Assembly (NCBI RefSeq): GCF_021018745.1
Contig: NZ_CP063845.1
Coordinates: 868,001-932,000 of the forward strand
DNA: 64,000 nt
DNA from: Gloeobacter morelensis MG652769
GTDB lineage: Bacteria; Cyanobacteriota; Cyanobacteriia; Gloeobacterales; Gloeobacteraceae
Direction of reading: 5' to 3'
Shown: positions 14,501-63,585 of the stretch, in pieces
How the letters are laid out: the number at the start of each line of letters is the position of its first letter
Numbering within the stretch: the first letter of the stretch is position 1
The notes under the pieces: model-generated
The model's input: only the letters and a program-made list of their open reading frames with translations
Told to the model about the DNA's origin: nothing
Database searches by the model: none
Translations under genes and position numbers: made by a program

Positions 14501-16729
14501 CGCCGCCTGCGCGTTGCCCAGATGGCCGCTGTGGCGATGGCAATCCTGGCTGCCTTTGCCGCCGTGGCCGGACTATTTGCCTACAAACAGGTTGAGGAGG
14601 TGCAGCACAGCCGCATCGACACACTGATTTCAGAATCAAAATTGTTGTTTGCCGACCACAGACAACTGGACGCACTGATCAGTAGTGTGCGTGCAGCGCA
14701 GCTGGCCCGTCAGTTTTTCTCGGGAGACAAACAACTCCACGAACAGACCGCCAGAACACTGCAAAAAGTGATCTTTAATATTGAGGAAGCCAATCGCCTA
14801 GAGGGCTACATCGGTACTCCGTTAAGTTGTGACTTCAGCCCGGATGGAAAATTCATCCTCTGCGGAGACTCGCAAGGAAATATCAATCTTCAAAATCGAA
14901 GTGGTCAGACCATTAAATCATGGAAAGGGCATGAATCTGTCATTTACAAAGTTGACTTTAGTCCCGACAGTCTTCAATTTGCAACTGCAGGTGAAGATAA
15001 GATTATTCGGCTATGGAGCGTGAATGGCGAATTGCTTAAAACACTGAGAGGCCATACCGAGCGAGTGCACAGTGTGCGCTACAGCTCAAGTGGCAGACTC
15101 CTTGCCTCGATGAGTTCAAACTCAATAAAGCTTTGGGATAAAACCGGTAAATATGTACGATCCATCAACCGCAACATTGGCGAAGCCATTGCCTTTGGAT
15201 GGAGCCCGGATGAAGAGCTGCTCGCCATTCCGATAATGGCAGCCAACTCTGTTGAAATCATCAATCTTCGCGGGCAATTGCTCAGAGTTCTTAAGGGCCA
15301 TACACAGCCGGTCAATGGCGCCAATTTCAGCCCTGATGGCAAGCAAATAGTCTCTTTTAGTTCAGACAAGACTGTACGACTTTGGAATGCAAAGAGCGGC
15401 AAAATTCAGCACGTTTATTCCGGCCATACGGATGCGATTTGGCAAGTCGAATTTAGCCCCGACAGCTCAATATTCGCATCAGCCGGCGAAGACAGGACAG
15501 TGCGCTTATGGAGCAAGGACGGCCACAGTTTAAAAATTTTGTCAGGTCATACAGACAGAGTCATGGATGTGCGCTTCAGCCCAGAAGGCACCCATCTCCT
15601 CTCAGCCAGCTTTGATAAATCAATTCGCTTATGGCAAGTAAATAATCGCTATAAATTAGCTTTTAAAGGTAATGGCTCCGAGGTGCTGTCTATGCGCTTC
15701 AGTCCGGTTAATAATCGCGTTCTAGCTGCCGCCACCCACAAAGATATCTACCTTTGGGGCCACGATGGAAAATTGATAGCCAGACTTATCGGGCATGAAG
15801 ATCTGGTTCAGAATTTTGACATAAGCCCCGATGGAAAGCAGATTGTCTCCGTAAGCTCCGACCGCAGCATTCGTCTTTGGAGTAGCCAAGGAAAGCTGCT
15901 TAAAATTTTTCCCAGGCAAACCAACTGGCCTTTCTTTGTTCGTTATATCTCCAGCGATATGATTGCTTCGGCAGGCCATGATAATCAGGTACATTTATGG
16001 AGCCTGGATGGCTCTTTACTACAAACTTTTAAGGGGCACACCGATTCAACGACAGGTGCCCTGCTCCTGCAGGACAAGGTGGCTAGCTTCAGCTGGGATG
16101 GTACTATTCGGCTGTGGCAACTGAATGGCAAACTGATAAAAGTTTTGACAGGACACAAAGGCCAAATTTATAGCTTTGACTTTCAGCCTGCCGATAATGT
16201 GCTGGCTTCCGCCGATTCAGAAGGTGAAATTCGACTCTGGCGCGGCGATGGCAGTCTGCTCGCTGTACTTTCAGGGCATCGGGGCTCTATTTACAATCTC
16301 AAGTTCAGCCCGGATGGCCGGATGCTAGCCTCCGGGAGCATGGACGGCACGGTGCGTTTGTGGACAGCTAGGGGAAAGTTATTGGCTGTATTGGCACACC
16401 ATTCCGATTCGATCCGGGATGTTCGCTTCAGCCCGGATGGCCAATACTTTGCAACGGCAAGTGAAGATGGTACGGTGCGCGTTTGGAGCCTGAAGGGTGA
16501 CTTGTTATCAACCCTCGATGTGGGTAACAGTGTGACAGCCCTTGCTTTTAGCCCTGACGGCCACACTCTGGCTTCCGGGAGTGCCGACGGCACCCTCGGG
16601 CTCTGGAAGCAATGGCGATACAGACCGCATGATGTGCTTGAGTCTGGCTGCCAATGGTTGCAGAACTACACAAGCCTTGCAACAGATGAGAAGGCTGGAG
16701 AAGTTGCCCGCGCCTGTAGAAAAAGGTAA
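11537..16729 (+). CDS. Caspase-like / nSTAND NTPase / TM / WD40 protein
   Basis: A 1730-residue multidomain protein. Residues about 20-265 form a caspase-fold (C14/metacaspase-type) peptidase with His106 in YFCGHGV and Cys157 in DACHSGG. Residues about 285-500 look like a second caspase-like domain with Cys416 in VLDCPGGG but no catalytic His (YLRAP replaces FCGHG). Residues about 520-980 are an nSTAND1-type NTPase module, starting CPYMGLRAF, with Walker A GASGSGKSS near 562 and Walker B VLLVIDQFEELF near 650. One transmembrane segment lies at about 995-1017 (VAMAILAAFAAVAGLFAY). About fifteen WD40 repeats with repeated FSPDG and RLW motifs follow to residue 1690, enough for two propellers, then a Cys/Trp tail (GCQWLQNY). 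The layout is a protease effector, NTPase switch and propeller sensor, as in bacterial death/conflict systems. DNA after about 14600 is markedly AT-richer than the first half. The gene is monocistronic. Confidence 0.9.
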   Translation: MSPVGIRSPQTGRRSLAKQGKLWMLLVGINDYQDATFAGLRYCVADCQGIHAALLDATPNFSGRECFIFHDRGVSAPLAAGVLAALEQIAERAQPEDTLLFYFCGHGVIDPVTRQAVLCLADTRAEAPAGTGLELQRLLARLGRCSAQQQLVWIDACHSGGMSIGDLATGADPGGPMVTVLRERAARSQGFYAILSCDRFQRSWEFSELGHGLFTYFLMRGLRGEAANTKGEIEVDHLYRYVCQQARLYIDNRNRQLRLLNRQKQRDGATDFFPEYPPQTPKRIVEGVGTQVIGLKVPQEEARPLRRALVVDGFAGERAAFALGPLLQESGGFEVAYWPQPGRPWSEVRQAIKTCLTPQGSAQEHETVLIYLRAPIERTAEGETLHLGGTVRLSPFWLRRELHSSGVAQQIVVLDCPGGGPSLADWTDCLMVSSERSQCLVAAASPQSDSERFLRVLLATLETADFQTGLSAASWIDRLQNGLHPARVGVHVGLTGETGIIEILPAARQNFSAFAAADLKLCPYMGLRAFAEEDAPYYFGRAVLARDLLSRLERQVFVAVVGASGSGKSSLVQAGLLAQLRTGRHIPGSQHWWIGSFRPGAQPIATLSRRLAEGRSPGEHLDPGAQIEGLLHLGAQGLLQWLAARQEPVVLLVIDQFEELFTLASPQERRDFLAVLLGALAGAAGRLKLVVTLRADFIGPCLEESELAPLLQQGSFLVPPVLVSADYRQIICKPAQQVHLQVEPELVEVLLQELSGSAGGLPLLEFALEQLWQVRSEGRLTLQAYRQEVGGLQGALEARAERVYAGLTTEERECAQWIFLSLTQLGEGTEDTRRRVHKSELVVERYSQDLVERTLQALTAAKLVVVDLEEGQPAGTRSTFGTDIATAAAQLRREVTVEVAHEVLIRHWSTLRWWLEENRARLRVLRQIEQAAFLWNQKQRQKDFLLQGVRLSEAEELIGKSADQLTATAQQFVVACLAERGTQRAQERRRLRVAQMAAVAMAILAAFAAVAGLFAYKQVEEVQHSRIDTLISESKLLFADHRQLDALISSVRAAQLARQFFSGDKQLHEQTARTLQKVIFNIEEANRLEGYIGTPLSCDFSPDGKFILCGDSQGNINLQNRSGQTIKSWKGHESVIYKVDFSPDSLQFATAGEDKIIRLWSVNGELLKTLRGHTERVHSVRYSSSGRLLASMSSNSIKLWDKTGKYVRSINRNIGEAIAFGWSPDEELLAIPIMAANSVEIINLRGQLLRVLKGHTQPVNGANFSPDGKQIVSFSSDKTVRLWNAKSGKIQHVYSGHTDAIWQVEFSPDSSIFASAGEDRTVRLWSKDGHSLKILSGHTDRVMDVRFSPEGTHLLSASFDKSIRLWQVNNRYKLAFKGNGSEVLSMRFSPVNNRVLAAATHKDIYLWGHDGKLIARLIGHEDLVQNFDISPDGKQIVSVSSDRSIRLWSSQGKLLKIFPRQTNWPFFVRYISSDMIASAGHDNQVHLWSLDGSLLQTFKGHTDSTTGALLLQDKVASFSWDGTIRLWQLNGKLIKVLTGHKGQIYSFDFQPADNVLASADSEGEIRLWRGDGSLLAVLSGHRGSIYNLKFSPDGRMLASGSMDGTVRLWTARGKLLAVLAHHSDSIRDVRFSPDGQYFATASEDGTVRVWSLKGDLLSTLDVGNSVTALAFSPDGHTLASGSADGTLGLWKQWRYRPHDVLESGCQWLQNYTSLATDEKAGEVARACRKR

Positions 16730-16815
16730 GCCCAAGACCAGCTTTCAAGTGCATAAGAACAGGCGGGGCAATAGTTTTCCTTTGGACACCCCGCACCTGG
16801 CACCTGAAGCCTGCT

Positions 16816-17424
16816 CTAGAAGGGAATAGTCGGCCACCGACTGTCGTCGGTTAGCCTGTTTATATTCGCGAGTACACTGTCGGTAGTCCTGGCGAGTATC
16901 CTCTCAAAATTTTCCGGATCGCTCAGATCTGGCTCCGTCGTAAATCTGGCCATCAGACCTTCAGGAACAGTACCGGCCAAAAAATACTGGCCTGCCGGAT
17001 CGTGGGCATAAACATCTGTATTCCCACTGACGCTGCTCAAGGCGTAATTGTAGTTTTGCCCGTCGGCTTCAAGATAGACCTGCTCTTGCTGAGGAATGCA
17101 CCTGGTATCAAAGCTTAAATGTCCCCTCCGACGAAGCGGCGGATCGGAGGACTTAGCGACAAGCTTTCCAGCGTTTAACCGCAGCATAATGGCTGGACCA
17201 TCATCAGCAATAGTTACTTCAGTATTCGAATCTAATCTCATCAGGGTGATCAGTAGTTGAGCACTACTCTCCACTTCCTGAAGCTCGACTAAAGAGGATC
17301 GTGTAAGCAGGATATCGTTCAATTCGAGCACCTGATCGACACCTTCTTCACAGAATGTTTCTTGATCTGCTTTTATGATTACAGGAAGCTCTGGACCGGC
17401 AATGATATGGGTAACTCTCCACAT
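16816..17424 (-). CDS. FecR-like domain hypothetical protein
   Basis: A 202-residue protein convergent with the caspase-STAND gene. Residues about 30-95 follow the FecR pattern: LNDILLTRSSLVELQEV, then a strand with RLDSNTEVTI, then MLRLNAGKLVAKS. The stretch after residue 110 is beta-rich with 'GQNYNYALSSVSGNTDVYAHDPAG'. No signal peptide is evident. FecR-like domains in cyanobacteria are often near caspase, CHAT or other conflict-type genes, so a partnership is conceivable but unproved. GC content is lower than the surrounding genome and similar to the WD40 half of the neighbour. Confidence 0.6.
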   Translation of the reverse strand: MWRVTHIIAGPELPVIIKADQETFCEEGVDQVLELNDILLTRSSLVELQEVESSAQLLITLMRLDSNTEVTIADDGPAIMLRLNAGKLVAKSSDPPLRRRGHLSFDTRCIPQQEQVYLEADGQNYNYALSSVSGNTDVYAHDPAGQYFLAGTVPEGLMARFTTEPDLSDPENFERILARTTDSVLANINRLTDDSRWPTIPF

Positions 17425-29895: not shown

Positions 29896-30699
29896 ATGGG
29901 GCTCAGAGCGCTCATCGACGCCGAATACCACCTCGATCGCGCCAGTGCCCGGGCGCGTCGGGGCGACTGGCGCGCGGCGGCGGCCGAGTACGAGTCCGCC
30001 CACCGCTGTGACCCCGAGAGTATCGAAGCGCTGGTCAACCTGGGGATCGCCTGTTTGCACCTGGGTGAACTGGAGCGGGCGGTCACCAGTTTTAGCGGGG
30101 CCCTCAGTCTCGAACCGACCCACCCGCTGGCCCTCTACAACCGCAGCCTGGCGCGGGTGCGCAGCGGCGATCGCGAAGGGGCCATCGCCGACCTGGATGC
30201 CGCCATTGCCGCCAGACCCGATTTTGCCGCCGCCTACGGCAATCGTGGGGCACTGCACGTTGAAACGGGCCGCCTTGAGGCGGCGCTCGCCGACTACGAC
30301 CAGGCCATTCGTCTAACTCCCAAGCGCGCCGAATTCTGGAGCAACCGCGCTGCGGCCCACCTGGCCTGCGCCCGCCCGCAGCAGGCGGTGGCCGACGCCA
30401 GTTTCGCCGTGCGCTGCAATCCACGCTTTGCTCCGGCCCACCACAACCGCGGCGAAGCCCGCTCAGCTTTGGGCGACCCGGCCGGGGCCGCCGCCGATTT
30501 TACCGCCGCGCTTGCCCTCGACCCCTCCTACGCAAGCGCCTATCTGGGCCGGGCGCGCTGCCGCCTGGTGCTGGGCGAGGCGGCGGGCCGCACCGACGCG
30601 GCGACGGCAGCCAAGCTGTTTGCCGCAGGTGGCGAGGAGGCGCTTGCCCGGCAGGCCCTGGCCTTGATTGAAGAACTGCCGCCCGCTTCGATGGCCTAG
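29896..30699 (+). CDS. TPR-repeat protein
   Basis: A 267-residue protein made of about six to seven tetratricopeptide repeats. Repeated pairs such as 'EALVNLGIACLHLGELERAVTSFSGALSLEPTHPLALYNRSLARVRSGDREGAIADLDAAI' follow the 34-residue TPR spacing. There is no signal peptide, so it is likely a cytosolic scaffold. The gene follows the Ycf46-like ATPase directly. Its last 175 bp are duplicated at 34266-34440 at about 95% identity, on the far side of the IS cluster. Confidence 0.85.
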   Translation: MGLRALIDAEYHLDRASARARRGDWRAAAAEYESAHRCDPESIEALVNLGIACLHLGELERAVTSFSGALSLEPTHPLALYNRSLARVRSGDREGAIADLDAAIAARPDFAAAYGNRGALHVETGRLEAALADYDQAIRLTPKRAEFWSNRAAAHLACARPQQAVADASFAVRCNPRFAPAHHNRGEARSALGDPAGAAADFTAALALDPSYASAYLGRARCRLVLGEAAGRTDAATAAKLFAAGGEEALARQALALIEELPPASMA

Positions 30700-30767
30700 A
30701 AGCTAAAGCATTATCTTGGTCTTAAGTTAGATTTGCAAACAGCCTCAATAAACGGGTTGAGAGGAAT

Positions 30768-31796
30768 GGCTCTCCTGAGTCCATGGTGTATGCTGTATAG
30801 CACCATACATTCTGCCAATGAGTATCGAACTGACGCAACTGCTCGGGCTACCCAACGTTTATGTCGAACGGCAGTCCATCGATGAACGGGGCATTATCTT
30901 CTATCTCAAGCCGCTTGCTCCAGGTATACTCTGCGGCGGTTGCGGCCAGTTTACCGACCGCGAACATCAAGCACGTCCCCTGCACATCCGAGACTTGAAA
31001 ATACGTAAAATGCCCGTATTTTTGCACATTCCTCGAAGACAATTTTACTGCCAAACCTGCGAACGCTACTGTACCGAACAACTGGATTTCGTCGATTGGC
31101 GACGGCGACACACCCGCCGTTTCGAGCAGGATATCTACGAGCGGGTACCCGCCTCAAGTCTCGAACAGATTGCGCGCGAAGAAGGCATCAGTCCAGACGA
31201 AGTACGAGGCATGTTCGAGCATGTGGCCAGGCAGTTAAAAAAAAGACTGGGGCCCCGTCAAGCGCATCAGCATCGATGAGTTTAGTGGGCGGCGCGGCCA
31301 CGATTTTAAAACGGTACTTTGCGATATCGAGACTGGCGAATTGCTGGAGGTCATCGATAGTCACAAACAAAAAGAGATCATTGAAAGCCTTTGCCTGCAA
31401 GCGCTTGAGGTGCGCGAAGCTATTGAAGAAGTGAGCATCGACATGTGGGGAGGTTTTCGAAAGGTTGTCCAGGAAGCCTTTCCCAATGCTGTGATTGTCT
31501 ACGACCGGTTTCACGTGATGCGGATGGTGAACGAAGAGGTCAAGAAGATTGCTCGCCAATGTGGCTTGGGCAAGCGCAAGGAGCAATTTTTGCTCCTAAA
31601 GAATGGAGTGGACTTGAATGCCGGGCAGAAAGTTCAGCTAGAAACCTATCTGCAGATCGACAAACGTTTACGCAAAGCGTATGAATACAAAGAGGAATTT
31701 CGGTGGATTTATGAGAGGAGTCAGAGTGTAGATGAAGGTCAGCAGAAGTTGGAAGACTGGCTTTTGAAAGCCCGCAAGGTATATGGGAAGGTGGTG
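30768..31796 (+). mobile_element. ISL3-family element, copy 1, 3' end lost
   Basis: The left terminal repeat GGCTCTCCTGAGTCCATGG starts at 30768 and matches the ends of the complete copy at 62355-63585. The element is then apparently identical to that copy until 31796, where it is cut by the IS3 element that begins TGAC at 31797. About 200 bp including the right terminal repeat are missing, and no target-site duplication can be checked. The transposase frame is broken twice (A8 tract and 3' truncation), so this copy cannot move by itself. Confidence 0.85.
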
Positions 31797-34235: not shown

Positions 34236-34440
34236 GCCAAGCCACTCGGCCCTAGGCAACCCGGTCTCCTACGCAAGTGCCTATCTGGGCCGGTCGCGCT
34301 GCCGCCTGATGTTGGGCGAAGTGGCGGGCCGCACCGACGCGGCGACGGCAGCCAAGCTGTTTGCCGCAGGTGGTGAGGAGGCGCTTGCCCGGCAGGCCCT
34401 GGCCTTGATCGAAGAACTGCCGCCCGCTTCGATGGCTTAG
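34236..34440 (+). pseudogene. Duplicated 3' fragment of the TPR gene
   Basis: The 175 bp at 34266-34440 match 30525-30699 with no gap and nine differences (about 95% identity by hand), encoding SYASAYLGRSRCRLMLGEV and the same end ELPPASMA plus stop. A further 30 bp upstream (34236-34265) align weakly with about 30450-30480, with some 40 bp missing in between. It has no start codon or TPR N-terminus, so it is a non-functional remnant. Confidence 0.85.
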
Positions 34441-34469
34441 ATCAGGTGTCCTATCGAATCCACGAAATG

Positions 34470-34686
34470 GACAGAGGATAGCATGGCATTGCCAACCACC
34501 CTCCTCGCCGCAGTCGTCACGCAAAGCGTGCCAGCCTTGAAAATACAGGCCAATCCCACCCACTGAGTCTCCGGCCTGACTCGCCTCTCAGTCCGGGGGG
34601 TGTCGGGGGGTGGCACCCCTCGACGCGGGGAGGGGGAGAGCGCGAGAGGGGCACCCGAAGGGGGTGCCGCCTCTCGCACACCCGCT
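34470..34686 (+). repeat. Dispersed GC-rich repeat, copy 1
   Basis: About 215 bp, 30 bp after the TPR fragment's stop codon. It aligns with 43870-43995 plus 44967-45064: an 'ACACGCAAAGCGTGC'-type block (here GTCACGCAAAGCGTGC), 'CCCACCCAC', then a highly conserved 3' part starting GTCCGGGGGGTGTCGGGG and ending CACCCGCT. The end can fold into a strong hairpin pairing CGAGAGG with CCTCTCG and GGCACCC with GGGGTGCC. No open frame. The rest of 34441-34780 holds nothing else recognisable. Confidence 0.75.
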
Positions 34687-34780
34687 GTCGGGCCAAGCCG
34701 AAAGCAAGAGTCAGGAGAGAAACCGTTGCTTACCGAGGTTTGCAGCCGGCCTGCCGCCCTCTGGACAACTGAAAACCACG

Positions 34781-35401
34781 CTAGCGAAGGTTATCCGGGA
34801 TTTTCTCAGGAATTACCCAGTAATAGACGGTCGAATCTTTGACCTTGAGCACACGGTCAGGTTTCCAGGAACCCATGTCGAAGGCGTGGGAGACGACGCG
34901 GGTGCCGGGCTTGAGCTGGCTAAAAAGCCGCGGCCGGAGCTTGACGTTGAGATCCGGCAGCAAATAGAGCGTCACGACAGTCGCTTCGCTGAGGTCGGTC
35001 TCGAAGAGATCTTGTTCAAGGAAACGCACCCGGTTGGTGACGCCGGCTTTGCGGGCGTTCTCGTTCGCTTCGAGGATGCGCGCCGGGTTGATGTCGATGC
35101 CGATGCCGCGCGCGCCGTACTGCTTGGCGGCGGTGACCACGATCCGCCCGTCGCCGCTGCCGAGGTCGTAGATCACATCGTCCTTGCCGACTTGGGCGAC
35201 TGTGAGCATCTGGTCGACCACCTCCTGGGGGGTGGGCACGTAGACCACGTCGGGATCGCGCTTGGGGGATTTAACTTCGGTCTTGACCTGGGTGCCGGCC
35301 TCGGGGGCGGCACTCTGGGCCAGCGAGACGGTGCTCGCGGTGCCTAGGGCGGCGAGGGCCGCGGCGGCGGTGAGCAGGGCGACTTTGGATCGAAGCTGCA
35401 T
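34781..35401 (-). CDS. Exported class I SAM-dependent methyltransferase-like protein
   Basis: A 206-residue protein with a signal peptide (MQLRSKVALLTAAAALAALGT, cleavage near SLAQS) followed by a Rossmann-type methyltransferase: 'DVVYVPTPQEVVDQML', motif I VIYDLGSGDGRIVVTAA, motif II 'GIGIDINPARILEAN', then 'LEQDLFETDLSEATVVTLYLLPDLNVKLRP' and 'VVSHAFDMGSWKPD'. SAM is cytosolic, so an exported enzyme of this type is odd; it may be lipidated, anchored or work on periplasmic substrates if export is incomplete. Similar exported proteins are known in several bacteria. Substrate unknown. Confidence 0.85.
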   Translation of the reverse strand: MQLRSKVALLTAAAALAALGTASTVSLAQSAAPEAGTQVKTEVKSPKRDPDVVYVPTPQEVVDQMLTVAQVGKDDVIYDLGSGDGRIVVTAAKQYGARGIGIDINPARILEANENARKAGVTNRVRFLEQDLFETDLSEATVVTLYLLPDLNVKLRPRLFSQLKPGTRVVSHAFDMGSWKPDRVLKVKDSTVYYWVIPEKIPDNLR

Positions 35402-42100: not shown

Positions 42101-43840
<1,740 letters not shown>

Positions 43841-44007
43841 TACCAAATCCGTGCAGATAGACAGCAGATAGACATGGGATAGTCCAGCCAGATTTGCCGA
43901 CCACCCATCTCGGCGCAGTCGACACGCAAAGCGTGCATGTACTGGAACCCTCTGCCCAGCCCACCCACAAAATCTCCCGCTTACCGCGCCATTAACGTCA
44001 GTTCGGG

Positions 44008-44883
44008 TTAAGCATTGAGCTGGTCGGCATCAGACGCCACCGACGGCTTGTTCGGTTTGTGGCAGTAGGCAATCAACCCACACACCAGGTTCACCAAAAA
44101 ATTCACTTCGCTGCGATGGCGGGTGTGCTCTATCTGCGAAATGTTCTTCAACTGGTCATTGATTGCTTCGATGATCCCGCGCTTGCGCAACAGCAGTTTG
44201 TCCGTCATCACCATCAGCCGATTGGTCATCTTGCGCCGCAACTTGGTGATCAGCGCCATGCCCAGCTCCTCGCGCAATTGCCTGCCAAGCTTGCTGCTGA
44301 TGTAGCCGCGGTCGCCAAACACTTTGCCGTGCAAGTCTTTGAGCAGTTCAGGCACAGGCTTGCGATCGTCAGTGTTCCCAGCCGTCACGCTCATCGCCAG
44401 CAATTCGCCGCGCTCATTGACCACCAAGTGCAGCTTGAAGCCGTAAAACCAGCCCACCGAGCTTTTGCCCCAGGCGGCCAGACCGACAAAGACTTTGTGG
44501 GCGTGGACGCGGCGCACATGGCAGACGGCAAGTGGAGTCGAATCGATAAAACTGATGCCGGTGCAGGGGCCAAAACAGTGGCGCAGGTAGGCACTGAGCG
44601 GCATAAGGGTAGAGGGCATCCACTCGACGAAGCGCGCGTAGCTGACCAGTCCAGGAAAAGCGCTTCGCCAGTAAGCGCAGACCATTTCGGTGTAGAAGGC
44701 CTTGAAGTGGCGGTAGGCGGATTGGTGAAAAGCAATCAGAATCGTCAGGATTTCGCTGAGGCAGAGTCGGCGTGGCCGTCGCCTGTGTCGCAGGCCATCG
44801 TCGAGCAATTGTTGCTGCCAGAGCGGTTCGAAGCGTTGGCAGAAGTCATCGACATGGCAAAAGAGCGCTTCTAGACTGGGCAT
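44008..44883 (-). CDS. IS982-family transposase
   Basis: A 291-residue DDE transposase. It starts [20 protein letters not shown] and carries '[23 protein letters not shown]', the first catalytic region [15 protein letters not shown], '[34 protein letters not shown]', [10 protein letters not shown] (second Asp) and '[28 protein letters not shown]' with the catalytic Glu. This is the classic IS982 layout. The gene looks intact, so the element could still be active. Confidence 0.93.
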
Positions 44884-44888
44884 AGCGA

Positions 44889-44934
44889 GCGGTCCGTGGC
44901 TTGTGATGTGCTAATCCCAGCCTAGGCGGACCGC
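44889..44934. promoter_or_regulatory. Inverted repeat before the IS982 transposase start
   Basis: GCGGTCCG (44889-44896) pairs with CGGACCGC (44927-44934) across a 30-nt loop, just upstream of the transposase start on the minus strand. IS elements often place such hairpins to block translation from external transcripts. Only symmetry and position support the call. Confidence 0.3.
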
Positions 44935-45173
44935 CTTTCCTTATCCCGAACTGACGTCGCCATTAAGTCCGGGGGGTGTCGGGGGGGTGGCACCCCCTCG
45001 ACGCGGGGAGGGGGAGAGCGCGAGAGGGGAACCCGAAGGGGGTGCCGCCTCTCGCCCACCCGCTATCGTGCGAAGCCATAAAATCGAATACGGCGTAGTC
45101 AGCCCCAGAAAGCCCAGGCAAAGACCGTCATTTGAACCCTACCGCTTCACCCGGATTCGATATGAGGCTGAAA

Positions 45174-62354: not shown

Positions 62355-63585
62355 GGCTCTCCTGAGTTCAAGGTGAGCAGCATCCCTTCTTGGCAAAGCC
62401 AGCGAGCAGCCGCAAGCGCAGGTTCTCAAAGTTTGTAAAGCCGTAGCCCTGGCGTTTGATTAACTTGATGCGGTTGTTGATGCCCTCCATCACTCCACTA
62501 CTCGACCGACGGATAAAATAGTTGCAGACCCCCTCGAAATGTTCTGTAATGGTCTGCACCACCTTCCCATATACCTTGCGGGCTTTCAAAAGCCAGTCTT
62601 CCAACTTCTGCTGACCTTCATCTACACTCTGACTCCTCTCATAAATCCACCGAAATTCCTCTTTGTATTCATACGCTTTGCGTAAACGTTTGTCGATCTG
62701 CAGATAGGTTTCTAGCTGAACTTTCTGCCCGGCATTCAAGTCCACTCCATTCTTTAGGAGCAAAAATTGCTCCTTGCGCTTGCCCAAGCCACATTGGCGA
62801 GCAATCTTCTTGACCTCTTCGTTCACCATCCGCATCACGTGAAACCGGTCGTAGACAATCACAGCATTGGGAAAGGCTTCCTGGACAACCTTTCGAAAAC
62901 CTCCCCACATGTCGATGCTCACTTCTTCAATAGCTTCGCGCACCTCAAGCGCTTGCAGGCAAAGGCTTTCAATGATCTCTTTTTGTTTGTGACTATCGAT
63001 GACCTCCAGCAATTCGCCAGTCTCGATATCGCAAAGTACCGTTTTAAAATCGTGGCCGCGCCGCCCACTAAACTCATCGATGCTGATGCGCTTGACGGGG
63101 CCCCAGTCTTTTTTTTAACTGCCTGGCCACATGCTCGAACATGCCTCGTACTTCGTCTGGACTGATGCCTTCTTCGCGCGCAATCTGTTCGAGACTTGAG
63201 GCGGGTACCCGCTCGTAGATATCCTGCTCGAAACGGCGGGTGTGTCGCCGTCGCCAATCGACGAAATCCAGTTGTTCGGTACAGTAGCGTTCGCAGGTTT
63301 GGCAGTAAAATTGTCTTCGAGGAATGTGCAAAAATACGGGCATTTTACGTATTTTCAAGTCTCGGATGTGCAGGGGACGTGCTTGATGTTCGCGGTCGGT
63401 AAACTGGCCGCAACCGCCGCAGAGTATACCTGGAGCAAGCGGCTTGAGATAGAAGATAATGCCCCGTTCATCGATGGACTGCCGTTCGACATAAACGTTG
63501 GGTAGCCCGAGCAGTTGCGTCAGTTCGATACTCATTGGCAGAATGTATGGTGCTATACAGCATACACCATGGACTCAGGAGAGCC
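62355..63585 (-). mobile_element. ISL3-family element, copy 2, complete with 8-bp TSD
   Basis: A 1231-bp element bounded by GGCTCTCCTGAGTTCA (from 62355) and its inverse TGGACTCAGGAGAGCC (ending 63585). The 8-bp duplication GACATGCC sits at both flanks (62347-62354 and 63586-63593), which is the ISL3 hallmark. It is inserted in an IS4-type transposase gene. The left part looks identical to copy 1 at 30768-31796, implying recent transposition. Confidence 0.93.
62368..63535 (-). CDS. ISL3-family transposase, two frames across an A8 tract
   Basis: The first frame (63074-63535, 153 residues) has the Zn-binding cysteines (CGGCGQFTD; FYCQTCERYC) and ends just after an A8 run (plus-strand T8 at 63109-63116). 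The second frame carries WGPVKRISIDEFSGRRGHDF, 'SIDMWGGFRKVVQEAFPNAVIVYDRFHVMR' (second Asp region) and, near the end, RRSSSGVMEGINNRIKLIKRQGYGF with the catalytic Glu. One A fewer would fuse both parts (about 390 residues, usual for ISL3). Expression of the whole protein would need slippage or a frameshift. Confidence 0.85.

Follow-up and report, generated by a model that had tools for sequence, protein, structure and literature searches.

A noncoding repeat present twice in the window (the whole stretch of 64,000 nucleotides that was analysed, positions 868001-932000 of a 4,921,229-bp Gloeobacter chromosome) was assigned to a MITE-like family specific to Gloeobacter, with a core that is homogenised between copies. 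These two statements, taken jointly, are the best explanation of the data, and we consider them quite probable. A MITE-like nonautonomous element is an ordinary kind of thing. What is unusual is that shared stop codons are targeted without harm and that the folded core undergoes concerted evolution within two different MITE backbones.

The first-pass annotation had described a dispersed repeat of about 215 bp and proposed a genome-wide search for its conserved 95 bp. The search was run, and the position of the copies relative to gene ends was determined. With a covariance model, 51 core copies were found in the window's genome (G000), all on the chromosome contig, where BLAST had earlier given 40 scored places and a pattern search 49. 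The same model found 45 cores in G. violaceus (G001), 32 in the MAG "Aphanocapsa lilacina" HA4352-LM1 (G002), and none in a fourth Gloeobacter member (G003) or five other Gloeobacterales (G004 to G008). The repeat is therefore due neither to chance nor to local duplication, and the reservation that it might be confined to two sites by one larger duplication proved false. Among the 39 genomes of the relatives search, it was confined to Gloeobacter. No match was found in the plasmid collection or in Rfam, at either gathering or relaxed thresholds, and no reading frame was consistently open across the copies, which identifies the family as noncoding. No earlier account of a Gloeobacter repeat of this kind turned up in the part of the literature that was searched.

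The features assigned within the window are as follows.

34438..34784, + strand: whole element, copy 1, about 346 bp, between duplicated YTAG targets; the G. violaceus site L145 is empty
34438..34440, + strand: stop codon TAG of a truncated TPR gene, belonging to the left target copy
34506..34699, + strand: core of copy 1, with a class C 5' half containing CACGCAAAGCGTGC, hairpins and tail (column conservation, alignment)
34602..34624, + strand: hairpin 1, GTCGGGGGGTGGCACCCCTCGAC (alignment, folding)
34642..34677, + strand: hairpin 2, GCGAGAGGGGCACC-CGAAGG-GGGTGCCGCCTCTCGC (alignment, folding)
34781..34784, no strand: right target copy CTAG, whose CTA (34781-34783) serves the convergent methyltransferase gene as its stop
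34781-35401, - strand: convergent methyltransferase gene
43838-43840: stop codon at which copy 2 starts
43839..45163, + strand: whole element, copy 2, type C ends GATACCAAATCCG ... CGGATTCGATAT, interrupted by an IS
43912..43994, + strand: core of copy 2, 5' half, including the left IS target copy
43995..44957, - strand: IS in the core of copy 2, IS982-type as named in the first-pass annotation, with a DDE_Tnp_1_3 transposase
44966..45078, + strand: core of copy 2, hairpin half
16733..16819, - strand: probable core-free B-type MITE (TIR match, 1 mismatch)

The two copies were confirmed by 87% identity over 105 nt (34595-34699 versus 44973-45077). Divergence of their 5' halves, as first described, is real, yet these halves still match at 88% (34489-34531 versus 43894-43936). 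The element is longer than the unit originally proposed, extending over 34438-34784 in copy 1 and about 43838-45163 in copy 2. Copy 2 is indeed split by an IS, flanked by an exact 8-bp duplication, CGCCATTA, at 43987-43994 and 44958-44965. The conserved end does form a strong hairpin, with RNA z scores far below shuffled sequences for copy 1 (-5.07 on the + strand and -4.82 on the - strand) and -2.73 for copy 2. Copy 1 is a mosaic in which B ends lie outside, while a C-type left end, TATCGAATCCACG (34452-34464), is nested inside together with a class C core. Several neighbouring features were also recorded. A block of ISL3- and rve-type ISs is flanked on both sides by the final 176 bp of the TPR gene (30525-30700 and 34266-34441, 95% identical), a duplication that leaves one complete TPR gene and, next to copy 1, a tail. 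Two inverted 1029-nt copies that are 100% identical (30768-31796 and 62557-63585) overlap ISL3-type transposase genes; they represent a recent transposition and are able to invert the intervening 31 kb. The probable MITE at 16733-16819 comes directly after an nSTAND1-WD40 gene, whose stop is at 16727-16729.

The core was defined from column conservation over 91 copies and an alignment of 84. In the aligned copies it measures about 190 bp, running from (C/T)GCCGCAGTCG to GTCGTGCAAAACCAA. Its 5' half falls into two classes, B (CACGCGTCGTGCAGGCCC) and C (CACGCAAAGCGTGCACGCACTGG), while its 3' half consists of hairpins 1 and 2 and corresponds to the 95-bp segment originally noted. Arms surround the core and carry two types of ends. 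Type B ends (CTAGAGCRGGTKTCAG, with the inner motif CAGGTGTCAGGGAAAACCGTTG) occur at both termini as imperfect inverted repeats, in core-free as well as core-bearing copies, and target CTAG; they also bound core-free MITEs of 53-106 bp in G000 and G001. Type C ends read TATCGAATCCG (TATCGAATCCGxGT). The complete core-bearing units thus have the short length (245-377 bp, below about 600 bp) and the terminal inverted repeats, of type B and type C, expected of MITEs. Since the core is found with both types of ends, it would behave as a cargo module that passes from one MITE backbone to another by swapping or recombination. In one copy of the MAG (L055, C4:8258), hairpin 2 has its inner part reverse-complemented, with ACCCCCTTCGGGT in place of ACCCGAAGGGGGT, which suggests an intrastrand or cruciform event.

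The assignment to MITEs was supported by empty sites. For the 15 G000 copies lacking a G001 partner and the 19 G001 copies lacking a G000 partner, the corresponding region was taken from the other genome. Three clean empty sites were obtained in the sister species, with insertions of 245-344 bp at YTAG-like targets. For L021/L140, 344 bp lie between GCTTTA and GCTCTA. For copy 1 of the window (L001/L145), 340 bp are inserted, and the empty site GATGGCCTAGCGCAAG becomes CTTAG...CTAG. For L125/L261, 245 bp are inserted at TTTAG, and the element begins with the TIR-like TAGGTGAGGTGCC. Target-site duplication was evident at L021/L140 and L001/L145, the 4-6-bp target copies being similar and not always identical. 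Four further pairs were less clean (L003/L148, L114/L271, L126/L268 and L129/L267); in the messy pairs, the element replaces unrelated sequence and its ends are not fixed by them. The earlier suggestion of a nonautonomous element was supported by the empty sites, the imperfect TIRs, the CTAG-like targets and about 50 dispersed copies. At L097 (G001) and L263 (G000), one of the two orthologous flanks of the element is inverted, which is consistent with recombination between inverted copies. L013/L134, considered as an in-place inversion, was rejected as such since two different sites are involved.

A transposase recognising CTAGAGCRGGTKTCAG ends would duplicate a CTAG-like target. The search for an autonomous element carrying B or C ends covered the DDE_3 (IS630-type) and Y1 transposase families and found none. 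An IS630-type partner was not supported, as the ends at the DDE_3 loci differ from the B and C ends. Y1 transposases (PF01797) numbered four in G000 (IS200/RAYT-type genes on contig C1 at 2052326, 3146361, 3680740 and 4798409), two in the core-less G003, and none in G. violaceus or G002. A RAYT partner was thus rejected since these genes do not track the repeat, being absent from G001 and G002 despite their 45 and 32 cores. The label REP-like, also proposed at first, fits the location and the hairpin and fails on the transposase, which two of the three carrier genomes lack. The partner transposase may be extinct.

The location of the copies was assessed from gene calls made with a home-made codon scorer, with 388 gene pairs from a 464-kb control set as the control for gene arrangement. 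Convergent genes flanked 54 of the 89 classifiable copies, compared with 80 of the 388 control pairs (p=7e-13), and the enrichment persisted after collapsing to unique loci (42/67, p=2e-11). Like REP/BIME sequences, the repeat is extragenic and close to gene 3' ends. The left-adjacent stop was TAG in 32 of 62 copies versus 110 of 400 (p=3e-4), while the excess on the right side was nonsignificant (27/79, p=0.28). CTAG is 3.6-fold denser at the spacers (2.46 per kb) than overall (0.68 per kb). Both window copies sit between convergent stops (34440/34781 and 43840/45174). At the empty site of copy 1, a single CTAG is present where both convergent stops fall. The target therefore overlapped the TAG stops of both convergent genes, so that duplicating it alters neither protein. 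This also accounts for the earlier statement that the repeat starts 30 bp after a stop codon, because the target CTAG held both stops and was duplicated; the proximity to the stop was correct, and the offset was not, as the element begins at the stop codon itself. Harmless insertion, together with the scarcity of CTAG in coding sequence, would explain why surviving copies lie between convergent genes. A simple route to a harmless mobile element is thereby indicated, in which a CTAG that is targeted and duplicated can, at convergent ends, carry both stops.

The strong enrichment between convergent genes could instead mean that the core is useful to the host as a 3'-end module, either a bidirectional RNA hairpin that terminates or protects converging transcripts or a supercoil or gyrase site as proposed for BIMEs, under selection for position and paired stems. 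We regard this as rather unlikely, and the same holds for the shared 3' processing or termination module suggested in the first-pass annotation. It would be favoured by the folding of the hairpins, which is strong on either strand, by a paired change at hairpin 2 and a swapped C-G/G-C pair at hairpin 1, and by a small hairpin at the place of the element in the sister genome at L129/L267. Cyanobacteria are generally held to lack Rho, and this presumed absence would favour it as well. However, a preference for convergent ends is also shown by B MITEs that lack the core (6/13, p=0.006), so position alone is no argument for a function of the core. Furthermore, no intrinsic terminator was called at copy 1 (34400-34850), and the aligned copies that were inspected showed no T-run after hairpin 2 and hence no U-tract. 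Ordinary terminator-like sites are present in 34 of the 48 element-bearing convergent spacers versus 22 of 53, the element-bearing ones being longer. A related proposal, that the core is a domesticated insulator of converging transcription (a terminator or supercoil sink) in the basal cyanobacterium Gloeobacter, spread by MITE ends and kept functional genome-wide by conversion, is judged improbable. A host benefit is not needed for the proposed explanation by MITEs and conversion.

The folding z scores would likewise suit a dispersed family of structured noncoding RNA genes. Two-sided changes were observed for only two pairs, one in each hairpin, and the covariation term of -0.03 kcal/mol is about zero and supports an RNA weakly. 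With no Rfam match even at the relaxed threshold and no promoter-like signal at copy 1, such a family is very improbable.

The data for homogenisation came from about 20 copies found to be orthologous between G000 and G001 by their flanks. In the class B arms, orthologs were 80-85% (left) and 78-84% (right) identical versus 40-60% and 36-59% for paralogs. In four successive segments of the core, the values were 87, 77, 92 and 93% for orthologs and 84-89, 73-75, 89-92 and 93-96% for paralogs. Little orthology is therefore retained in the core between species, ortholog identity (77-93%) being about equal to paralog identity (73-96%), which is not the case in the flanks. The true ortholog usually ranked first by the arms, while its median rank was 4-10 of 34 by the core. 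These identities show that the core, and not the arms, has been homogenised between dispersed copies. The homogenisation is partial, as several ranks of 1 in the core represent residual ortholog signal.

Individual changes followed the same pattern. The paired change from AAC/GTT to CAC/GTG in hairpin 2 (CACCC..GGTGCC) was present at 13 G000 loci and in none of the 45 G001 copies or the sampled G002 copies. At five of the 13, the G001 ortholog is unchanged, with AA for CA and GTT for GTG. Three G000 copies are half-changed (AAC..GTG), among them copy 2 of the window (hairpin 2 at 45020-45055). An AAGCGCG variant was found in all three carrier genomes and, in G000 and G001, at nonorthologous loci.

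Purifying selection was rejected as the reason for core similarity in the 5' half; orthologs diverge there as fast as the arms, so selection cannot explain the likeness of paralogs, and this also counts against a host-useful 3'-end module. Part of what is seen, as far as the core by itself is concerned, could also be mimicked if the element had spread in a burst shortly before the species split. A further possibility is that the core is itself mobile, as a palindrome-type or single-stranded DNA element inserting into or beside MITEs, with reinsertion making the copies alike. The same core does occur in B ends, in C ends and in nearly armless contexts, and one convergent spacer is occupied by a class C core in G000 (L091) and by an oppositely oriented class B core in G001 (L116), probably as two independent insertions. 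However, the clean empty sites include the TIR-like outer ends (L125/L261), ortholog arms keep their place and the core between them changes without switching orientation, and neither G001 nor G002 has a Y1 transposase. A mobile core is thus quite improbable. Gene conversion between copies is inferred as the simplest probable cause of the concerted evolution of the core. Homologous conversion would act on the longest shared stretch, and correction of the hairpin (cruciform) may help to keep the stems paired. The family thereby offers a clean natural setting for testing gene conversion among short bacterial repeats at dispersed sites, in which the diverging arms of about 20 ortholog pairs serve as internal clocks.

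Among known cyanobacterial MITEs, Nezha has a TA/CTAG-like target preference, in which it resembles the present element. Such MITEs (Nezha is cited in PMC10969869) are likewise short, noncoding, TIR-bounded and present in many copies. The Gloeobacter element differs in its large folded core common to two end types, in the homogenisation of that core independently of the arms, and in that no partner IS was found. REP/BIME sequences with RAYT (TnpAREP, PMC8266576) are likewise intergenic hairpins near gene ends, and gene conversion has been proposed for REPs, judging from the title of Higgins 1988 as cited in PMC2267715. In contrast, the Gloeobacter element measures 245-377 bp with a core of about 190 bp, has TIRs and YTAG-like target duplications, and lacks a Y1 transposase in the carriers G001 and G002. 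The SPRITE, BOX and RUP elements of pneumococcus (PMC10969869) are also small, nested and clustered, and one of them is terminator-like, whereas the host and the position rule are unrelated and the Gloeobacter repeat has no U-tract. Concerted evolution of prokaryotic repeated genes (PMC6053082, PMC6002687) likewise leaves paralogs at least as alike as orthologs; those cases concern genes such as rRNA, while here it is seen in a noncoding repeat of about 190 bp at about 50 dispersed sites.
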